The position numbers were made by a program, and so were the translations under genes. Of a stretch of 64,000 nt of DNA, positions 13,352 to 44,930 are shown piece by piece. A model generated the notes under the pieces. The model was given only the letters and a program-made list of their open reading frames with translations. It was not told the DNA's origin and did not search any database. The first letter of the stretch is position 1. Each line of letters opens with the position of its first letter. The stretch is from Anaerolineales bacterium (lineage in GTDB: Bacteria > Chloroflexota > Anaerolineae > Anaerolineales > UBA11858), in assembly GCA_016785015.1 (NCBI GenBank), contig JADHTJ010000008.1:1-64000 (forward strand). The letters are read 5' to 3'.

Positions 13352-13404
13352 ACTGCAAGGTTCGTTCTGAACAAGAATGTTATGAATTTTACAAGTATCA
13401 TTCG

Positions 13405-13529
13405 TGACTCTACTGAAAACAGCCACCTAGCGAGTTTCCCGCCGGAATATATGGGGTGTGGTTGTTCCGCAACCACACCCCATATATTCCGGCGGAAGCC
13501 CTTGACTGGTAGTTTTTTCAGTGGAGTCA
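13405..13529. repeat. Nested hairpin repeat, copy 2
   Basis: Perfect 26-bp inner arms (13439-13464 and 13470-13495, 5-base loop) are enclosed by imperfect outer arms that begin TGACTC-ACTGAAAA and end TTTTCAGT-GAGTCA. TCATTCGTG occurs directly repeated at both outer edges, like a target duplication. The inner sequence (CCGCCGGAATATATGGGG) is nearly the same as copy 4 at 44.8 kb. Confidence 0.75.
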
Positions 13530-13577
13530 TTCGTGGCATTGGTGTCATTCGTCGTCATTCGTGATAAAAGGAAAGCA

Positions 13578-17216: not shown

Positions 17217-20200
17217 ATGAACATCCTCGACCAGACTCCGCGCTTTAATACCGACGAAGCACTTTCAATCTGCAAACGCAAATATGGTATACCTGGATCC
17301 CTGACCTCCTTGCCCAGCGAACGTGATCAGAACTTTTTGCTGCATACTGATACCAGTGACAAGTTCGTTCTAAAGATCGCCAACGCAGCCGAAGATATCG
17401 CCCTAATCGAAGCGCAGAACCTGGCCATGGCGCATCTCAACCAGCATGGGATTATTTGTCCACAGGTTATCCACAACAAATCCGAAAAGAGTATCAGCGA
17501 AATTCAATCTGCGACCGGGGAAACTCACGCAGTGCGTTTGGTAAGTTATCTGCCTGGAAAACCTTATGGCGAGGTACGGCGCCATTCTCCTGAACTTTTT
17601 TCCAACCTGGGTAAATATCTGGGGCAAATGGATCGAACATTGACCAGCTTTGACCATGCCGCCATCCAGCGTGATTTCCATTGGGATCTGGCCAACGCCC
17701 TGGATGTCGTAAACGAACACCAATCATTAATCATAAATCATGAATTACGAGATCTGATCAACAAATTCACCAACGACTTCCAGAAAAATGCGCTCCCCCT
17801 GCTGCCCAAATTGAGAAAAAGCGCCATCCATAACGATGCCAACGATTACAATGTCATTGTTGGGAGTGGAGTCGATCTCTATTCACGCAATCAACAAATC
17901 GTGGGAGTGATCGACTTTGGCGATATGGTACACAGCTATACCATCGCTGAACTGGCCGTTGCCACTGCTTATGCCGTTCTGGATAAACCGAACCCCTTAG
18001 AAATCGCAGCATTCTTGGTAAAGGGCTATCATCAGGAAAATCCCCTTATCGAAGATGAAATTTCAGTCCTCTTCGGCCTCATGACCATGCGGCTATGCAT
18101 GAGCGTCTGTCTGGCCGCCCACCAAACCCAGCAGCGTCCCGATGATGAATATCTTTCGATCAGTCAAACAGCCGTTCACAATACCCTTCCAAAGCTGGCC
18201 GAAATTCATCCACGTTTTGCTGAAGCCACTTTCCGCCAGGCCTGCGGGTTGACGCCGCTCCCCCAAACCGAGAAAGTGGTCCAATGGCTCGGTACAAAGG
18301 CACAAGTTGCACCGATATTAGAACCTATCCGAAAGTTGCGTCGAGGGCTGAGGTTCTCGAAGCCCGGCGCTGGTTTCGAGAGCCTCAACCGGCTCATCTT
18401 AGATTTAAGCATTGGCAGCCCCCTCTTCGATGGCGCAGATGAAGCCTCACTGGCAGAGACCAACCTGACCCCACTTCTGTTCAACGAGCTTGAAGAGGCG
18501 GGAATCCAAGTTGCTATCGGCCTATATGATGAAGCGCGATTATTCTATACCACACCAACCTTCGCCACTGGCGATAAGCTGACCGATGAACACCGTACTA
18601 TTCACCTGGGCATCGATCTTTTTGCTGTTCCAGGCACGGCGGTTTACGCTCCGCTCGAAGGATTAGTGTATGTCTTCCACGATAACAATGCGCCTCAGGA
18701 TTATGGCCCGGTGATCATCCTGGAGCACCAAACGACTGACTCCACGCCGTTTTACACCCTGTACGGCCATCTCAATCGGGCTTCTCTGGCTGGAATAAAG
18801 AGGGGACAATTATTCAAGGCTGGGGATACGCTCGGTGAAATCGGCACCAACCAAGTCAATGGCGGTTGGACGCCCCACCTGCACTTCCAGGTCATCACCG
18901 ACCTGCTCGACCTCGATTGTGAATTCCCCGGCGTTTGCCAGGCCAGTCAGCGTGAAATTTGGAAAGCTTTCTCGCCTGATCCCAACTTGGTCCTGCGCAT
19001 CCCTGAAGGGAAGCTTCCCAAACATCCACTGAGCAAATCCGAAACATTAGCTGCTCGGCAAAAACTGATCGGCCGCAACTTGAGTGTCGGATACAACGAG
19101 CCGCTCAAGATCGTGCGCGGCTGGAAGCAATATCTCTTCGATGAAACCGGCCGGCGCTATGTCGATGCCTACAACAATGTACCCCATGTTGGGCACTGCC
19201 ATCCACGCGTCGTGGCGGCTGGTCGCACGCAGTTGGGCGTTCTCAACACCAACACCCGCTACCTGCATGACAATCTGCATCGATATGCCCAGAAAATTAT
19301 CGCCACGCTGCCTGAACCCTTGAGCGTGTGCTTCTTCGTTAACTCAGGCAGCGAGGCCAATGAATTGGCCATGCGACTTGCCCGCGCCTACACGGGGACG
19401 AAGGATATGCTCGTCATGGAAAGCGCCTATCACGGCCATACTACTTCATTGATCGATATCAGCCCCTACAAACACGATGGCCCTGGGGGTAGCGGCGCTC
19501 CGCATTGGGTGCACGCTGTCCCCATCCCAGACATCTATCGCGGCCAATACAAAGCCGATGATCCCCAAGCTGCTGAAAAATATGCCATCCATGTTCAGGA
19601 AGCGATTGAGAAACTGGAACAGAATGGGGGGAAGTTGAGGGGCATAATCGCCGAAACTTGTCCCAGCGTGGGCGGCCAGATCTTCTTGCCTGAGGGGTAT
19701 CTGAGTAAAGTTTATGAGCATGTGCGATATGCCGGCGGTCTGTGCATTGCTGACGAAGTACAGACCGGCTACGGTCGCACCGGCACACATTTCTACGCCT
19801 TCGAGGCACACGGCGTCGTGCCCGATATCGTCGTGTTAGGCAAACCGATTGGCAACGGCCATCCCATCGGCGTGGTGATCACCCACCCGGAAATCGCCGC
19901 GGCCTTCGATAATGGCATGGAATTCTTCAGTACCTTTGGCGGAAACACGGTTTCGTGTGCCATCGGCATGGCGGTGTTGGATGTAGTTCTGGAGGAGAAT
20001 TTACAGAATCATGCCCTGCATGTGGGGAATTACTTACTTGAAGGATTACGGCGCTTTGAGGCTGACCATGCCCTCGTGGGAGATGTACGGGGGTCTGGGT
20101 TGTTCCTGGGCGTGGAGTTGGTCCAGCATCCAGAGACACTCGAACCAGCCACCGCAGAAGCCGCCTTCATCGCCAACCGTATGCGCGAGATGGGCGTGCT

Positions 20201-20327
20201 GCTGGGCACCGACGGACACTATCACAATGTAATCAAGATCCGCCCGCCGATGCCCTTCTCCATCGAAGATGCAGATTTGTTATTAGGGGCGATGGAGCAG
20301 ATTCTCTGGGAAGATTTTGGGGATTAG
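17217..20327 (+). CDS. Three-domain fusion: APH-type kinase, M23 peptidase-like domain, class III aminotransferase-type phospho-lyase
   Basis: 1036 residues. Domain 1 (about 1-330) is an aminoglycoside-phosphotransferase/choline-kinase fold with catalytic HNDANDYN and metal-binding GVIDFGD. Domain 2 (about 440-590) is M23/LytM-like with HLGID and PHLHF, i.e. H-x3-D plus H-x-H zinc ligands all present. Domain 3 (about 600-1036) is a class III PLP fold with the lysine in [14 protein letters not shown]. The kinase and PLP domains resemble hydroxylysine kinase and AGXT2L-type ammoniophospholyase (phosphohydroxylysine or phosphoethanolamine), so the enzyme may phosphorylate an amino alcohol and then eliminate phosphate and ammonia. 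Such kinase-M23-lyase fusions are known in bacteria; the purpose of the M23 module is unclear. No signal peptide is seen. Confidence 0.85.
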
Positions 20328-29478: not shown

Positions 29479-29531
29479 AATATCAAAATCATATAAATCA
29501 GCGTGAATCTGCATCCAGATTATTAACTCAT

Positions 29532-29625
29532 GTTACGCACACGTAGCGAGGTTTCCCTGGAAATAGGGGGTGGGGGCGAAGACCCCACCCCCTATTTCCA
29601 GGGAGATTCTGTTAAGGTTGCGTAC
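29532..29625. repeat. Nested hairpin repeat, copy 3 ('filled')
   Basis: Perfect 22-bp inner arms (29554-29575 and 29583-29604) with a G-rich left arm sit inside outer sequence ending GTTACGCAC / TTGCGTAC. The outer sequence is the inverse of 25655-25698, which lacks the inner palindrome. Confidence 0.75.
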
Positions 29626-29654
29626 ATCAGTTATTAATTGTGTGGCATTTCAAC

Positions 29655-44781: not shown

Positions 44782-44811
44782 GTTGGACACGGATGCCTCT
44801 TCTGCAAAAAG

Positions 44812-44902
44812 CCACCAAGCAAGTTTCCCGCCAGAATATATGGGGTTGGATGCGGAGCAACCAACCCCATATATTCTGGCGGAAGCCTTAGTCTGGTAGT
44901 TT
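44812..44902. repeat. Nested hairpin repeat, copy 4
   Basis: Perfect 22-bp inner arms (44828-44849 and 44861-44882) starting CCGCCAGAATATATGGGG, framed by CCACCAAGCAAGTTTCC and GGAAGCCTTAGTCTGGTAG. Nearly identical in frame and inner arm to copy 2 at 13.4 kb, with paired G/A and C/T changes that keep the stem intact. Confidence 0.75.
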
Positions 44903-44930
44903 TATCACACAAGGGTATTCAATTAGAACA

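Follow-up and report, generated by a model that had tools for sequence, protein, structure and literature searches.

Prokaryotic MITEs derived from insertion sequences (IS), such as the QMITEs of Coxiella, are intergenic stem-loop elements of 100-130 bp that carry terminal inverted repeats (TIRs), are flanked by target-site duplications (TSDs), and reach high copy number; the review describing them (PMC10969869) mentions neither template switching nor hairpins. Dispersed hairpin-forming elements with compensatory changes are also known from REPIN/RAYT systems (PMC3116915). Polymerase template switching, in turn, yields homogenised arms and an inverted spacer or loop as its products (PMC8604942, PMC8794818), and switching between inverted-repeat arms has also been recorded in E. 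coli reporters (PMC7202029). At short palindromes, studies of this process have usually relied on individual reporters or on reconstruction from sparse phylogenies. The hairpins described here are ordinary MITEs that carry what is probably an unusual record of this known replication error process.

The window (the whole 64,000-nt stretch that was analysed) comes from a fragmented MAG of 4.95 Mb in 243 contigs that is 81% complete (hereafter G000). An earlier note had placed four hairpins in it, and inspection of the sequence confirms that all four exist at or near the coordinates given. They do not form the single family proposed there; rather, they belong to three families of MITEs (A, B, and C), which are non-autonomous mini-transposons with TIRs, TSDs, and a central palindromic core, and which have unrelated ends and three types of TIR and TSD. 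Family A, with TGACTC ends (TIR TGACTCTACTG) and 4-bp duplications, is represented by a full copy on the forward strand at 13405-13529 (TGACTCTACTG.. / ..CAGTGGAGTCA) that was aligned with 25 other near-full copies from the same genome and is flanked by TTCG at 13401-13404 and 13530-13533, duplications identified from the sequence and the TSD statistics. Its inner hairpin core (13439-13495) has perfect 26-bp arms and a 5-nt loop. A second family A copy (44795-44907, forward strand), placed by the family alignment, is truncated at its right end; in the core of its inner hairpin (44821-44889), changes are paired at positions t=7 and t=20, and a single mismatch lies 3 bp away from the loop. Family B (ACTCATGTTACGCA ends, duplications of about 6 bp) is represented by a forward-strand copy at 29526-29630 (ACTCATGTTACGCA.. 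/ ..GTACATCAG) between TTATTA duplications at 29520-29525 and 29631-29636, with its hairpin at 29534-29624. Family C (GGTTCTATGGGAAT/GGTCTCTAGGAAT ends, 8-9-bp duplications) is represented by a forward-strand copy at 18-127 (GGTTCTATGGGAATTG.. / ..CCTAGAGACCC), with its core at 47-97. In the hairpins at 29534-29624, 44821-44889, and 47-97, arms of about 20-22 bp are perfect and mismatches are confined to positions adjoining the loop. Single-stranded DNA folding energies of the four hairpins are 7-11 standard deviations below those of shuffled sequences.

All four hairpins have G+C-rich stems and occupy gaps between the main open reading frames. One protein encoded in the window, of 1,036 amino acids (17217-20327), joins a phosphotransferase (APH) domain, a peptidase M23 domain, and a class-III aminotransferase. 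For the NiFe-hydrogenase gene, the closest named relatives lie in Chloroflexota MAGs, Anaerolineae-like. Intergenic position and G+C-rich stems would also suit unrelated intrinsic terminators or chance palindromes. That explanation is refuted by copy number and TSDs, there being dozens of homologous dispersed copies with duplications, and no consistent T-run follows the stem (the family C core has ATTT to its left and AAAT to its right); we regard it as extremely improbable. A scan of the window with Rfam covariance models at the gathering threshold gave no match.

Genome searches with each hairpin returned at least 40 dispersed matches for each of the three families, numbers that are lower bounds; further candidates were left unscored. 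From about 0.9 Mb of G000, 26 copies of family A, 42 of family B, and 45 of family C were aligned end to end, and TIRs are present in all three alignments. The elements are 105-125 bp long and have no coding capacity. Relative to shuffled flanks, duplications of at least 4 bp occurred in 25 of 28 family A copies (3.0 expected), of at least 8 bp in 30 of 45 family C copies (0.7 expected), and of at least 5 bp in 14 of 38 family B copies (2.4 expected); a constant size is thus clear for A (4 bp) and C (8 bp) and weaker for B (about 6 bp). An exact-pattern scan of the genome contigs found nothing. At orthologous sites in congeners, which are about 75-80% identical to G000, the flanks were located and the window site had no MITE. 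Family B also includes copies with a different or shortened core (L138 8033-8084, GGTTGGGGGGCTAGATCCCCCCAACC; L149 9061-9097, GGGGGGAAGCCCCCC). Further long, near-perfect hairpins that lack the G-run core (L040 1420-1482 and L170 2764-2820; CAGATAC.., CAGATGCGAGC..) are possibly additional repeat families.

The MITEs were most likely moved by DDE-type IS transposases, in the case of family B by an IS701-family element. Two 1,151-bp elements in G000 bear the family B end sequence together with matching duplications (TTAAGTA, TTACTTA) and encode an IS701-family DDE transposase (NF049921, 358 bits). Among the rve and DDE_Tnp_1 loci examined for the ends of A, B, and C, a complete element was found only for B, and searches with PF01610, PF00665, PF01609, PF00872, and PF13610 found no partner for A or C. 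Transposases of the ISL3 (PF01610), IS256 (PF00872), and IS240 (PF13610) types, considered as partners of family C, are absent from G000. Isolated C and B ends occur in the approximately 0.9 Mb of G000, with no transposase element found between paired ends. The earlier note had also raised a transposase acting on hairpins, to be sought among RAYT-like and IS200/IS605-type enzymes; under this rival, single-strand transposition would renew the hairpin. Y1 transposases are indeed encoded in all seven genomes of the genus (six matches in G000), and REPIN hairpins likewise show compensatory changes (PMC3116915). Yet no complete A or B element turned up next to the Y1 genes at the loci examined across the genus. 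The sole MITE adjoining a Y1 gene among these loci belongs to family C and comes from the congener G004 (L182, G004:C447); it is separated by about 200 bp from a Y1 gene that is IS200-like and has an in-frame stop, which is probably a coincidence. TIRs, duplications of 4, 6, and 8-9 bp, and the ends that family B has in common with an IS701-family element fit DDE transposition and argue against RAYT or IS200/IS605. The TSDs largely refute single-strand transposition as the source of hairpin renewal, which we therefore consider very improbable.

The earlier note had further proposed that perfect inner arms beside decayed outer arms reflect renewal of the inner part, and had named the lack of a compensatory pattern beyond chance as a refutation. 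Paired changes, here complementary changes on both arms relative to each family's consensus, are far more frequent in the inner stems than independence would predict: 9 versus 0.3 expected in A (Fisher p 5e-8), 29 versus 2.9 in B (p 1e-13), and 12 versus 0.56 in C (p 2e-8), or 50 against about 4 across the three families. Homogenisation of the inner stem is thus well supported against chance. At outer positions that are paired in the consensus, the observed and expected numbers were 3 and 0.6 (A), 8 and 2.0 (B), and 2 and 0.7 (C), a weak excess that is not significant by family, and the outer arms may be slightly homogenised too. Kinship among copies inflates these counts; hence, variants were also collapsed across G000 and the congener G004, whereupon 39 of 160 distinct inner variants and 14 of 170 outer variants were paired (p=8e-5). 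Among single-copy variants only, 22 of 104 inner and 13 of 103 outer variants were paired, a difference that is not significant (p=0.14). The refuting condition of the earlier note thus does not apply, whereas the sharp contrast that it drew between inner and outer arms is weaker at the level of events. No paired change fell among 29 variant classes within 4 bp of the loop, as compared to 25 further out, a gradient that is not relied on given that family B is hard to align near the loop; copies compared between species do have paired changes 2 bp from it.

The paired difference reported between the 13405 and 44812 hairpins (GCCGG/CCGGC versus GCCAG/CTGGC) is borne out, and at this pair (t=20 in family A) all four states, G-C, A/C, G/T, and A-T, occur across copies, such that one-sided intermediates of both kinds are present in other family A copies. 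In the 13405 copy, each arm has a one-base insertion that the other aligned family A copies lack, and a paired one-base indel on both arms is likewise present in L138_5465. Paired substitutions could also be inherited compensatory evolution, if selection kept the core foldable in transposition-competent sources, for instance where a cruciform or an RNA hairpin promoted mobility or protected the host. Several paired variants are indeed common to subfamilies (in B, t=16 and t=17, each present in 6-8 copies; in C, T/A in the GATC-ended copies) and, since such variants may predate transposition, selection for a foldable core could contribute. One-sided changes are also fewer in inner than in outer arms in A and C, in keeping with selection. 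Against it, each of the nine paired variants in family A is confined to one copy, private paired indels are not predicted, and subfamilies with mismatched cores have multiplied (C GGGAG/CCGCC, several copies). On balance, we consider selection a rather unlikely primary cause.

Inversion of the loop separates the two explanations further. The loop reads GGA in families A and C and GAA in family B and in family A of G004, and every family contains copies with either orientation of it, judged against the asymmetric outer arms. On trees of the outer arms, which rest on roughly 55-70 columns, at least 33 switches of orientation are required (minima of 4, 11, 12, and 6). In family C, the core sequence of L156_7628, CGTGCTCCGCACA, is the reverse complement of TGTGCGGAGCACG, found in the sister type L148_8651, and the cores of L079 and L085 are the inverse of the L091/L097 type with the stem mismatch carried along. 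Since both inverted cores carry a stem mismatch with them, the inversion reaches up to at least 7 bp on each side of the loop and is not explained by mutation of the loop. Paired substitutions can be accounted for by selection on hairpin folding; these inversions cannot. Four family C copies (L148_8651, L149_8654, L150_6338, and L156_7628) also have a short duplication in the right outer arm (CCTTACCAAGGGC), and both core orientations occur among them.

Apparent flips could, in principle, stem from mis-resolution of palindromic cores during assembly or amplification. Contigs often end inside hairpins in these fragmented, probably short-read MAGs, such that the orientation of a single copy may be mis-assigned, and in family A of G004 orientation looks random even among copies with identical outer arms (39 pairs in the same and 43 in the opposite orientation). 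In families A and B of G000, however, orientation tracks outer-arm similarity, unlike random mis-assembly: copies whose outer arms differ little mostly share an orientation, and beyond four or five differences the orientation becomes about random. Moreover, flips that carry mismatches recur in the sister copies L079 and L085, and the copies with paired substitutions and indels are distinguishable by further mutations of their own. An artefact is accordingly an improbable source of the pattern.

Cores are also lost. In family A, the core is partly or wholly missing from about eleven copies, the deletions having about ten different junctions; the persistence of these copies is a further point against selection for foldability. 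A comparison of flanks identified one probable common insertion (L028, L165, and L169), in which L169 is without its core. L169 thus appears to share an insertion with full copies, indicating that at least this loss came after insertion; no paired change was found at this presumed common insertion. No insertion common to different species was found among these congeners, so a post-insertion origin of the paired changes is presumptive.

Together, the excess of inner paired changes, loop inversion, paired indels, and core deletions favour the proposal of the earlier note that the inner part is renewed by template-switch copying. Since arm homogenisation and spacer inversion, the features by which quasipalindrome hotspots are recognised, are both found in the MITE cores and constitute the published signature of template switching, we consider it likely that switching between arms during replication renews and flips these cores. 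Under such a mechanism, the core would fold, or the fork would stall, during replication, and the polymerase would switch to the opposite arm, or to the opposite strand, and then return. Copying of one arm onto the other would generate paired substitutions, paired indels, or restored perfection; a switch between strands would invert the loop; and failed passage would delete the core.

The cores of A, B, C, and congeneric elements have a G-run on the 5' arm and mostly C-GNA-G triloops (GGA, GAA) on one strand. Tips of the d(GCGNAGC) type form unusually stable DNA mini-hairpins. A fourth MITE-like family in G006 (L096, L102, L106, and L112) has GTGTGCGCGCA ends and a core (GGGGTGTGGGGCGTGC-GGA) nearly identical to that of family C in congeners (L094 and L100 in G002; L098 in G005), and its outer arms are unrelated. 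To judge from this sequence identity, cores may be exchanged between MITE families. A more far-reaching reading, which we offer only tentatively and think unlikely, is that the core is a hairpin module, with a G-first arm and a C-GNA-G tip, common throughout the genus to MITE families whose ends are unrelated, its orientation brought close to random by frequent flipping, possibly through an unusually stable single-strand tip that would make template switching part of every cycle of replication or transposition.

Many near-identical palindromes, each with asymmetric outer arms, amount to a natural replicate experiment in which rates of flipping, homogenisation, and deletion are comparable with point mutation in the same copies. 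They also caution against taking 'compensatory' changes in mobile hairpins as a sure sign of selection on RNA structure. Intrastrand triplex repeats (PMC4666352), considered as a further comparison, need a third strand, which the MITE cores do not have. No description of invertible MITE cores was found in the open-access papers searched; the mechanism is already known, and its record in so many MITE copies appears to be new.

Compared to described systems, the present families resemble IS-derived MITEs (PMC10969869) in length, TIRs, TSDs, copy number, intergenic position, and stem-loop form, and family B, as in such MITEs, shares its ends with a resident IS; unlike them, they have an additional, nearly perfect, G-first core, which undergoes homogenisation and inversion from copy to copy. 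With REPIN/RAYT systems (PMC3116915) they share dispersal, hairpin formation, and compensatory changes, but they differ in having TIRs and TSDs and in the DDE IS partner of family B, and a RAYT link was not found. In process, they resemble quasipalindrome template-switch hotspots (E. coli, PMC7202029; yeast, PMC8604942; RNA hairpins, PMC8794818), where homogenisation and spacer inversion likewise occur at short inverted repeats; unlike those hotspots, the MITE cores hold a many-fold record in dispersed copies, in which the outer arms serve as an internal control.
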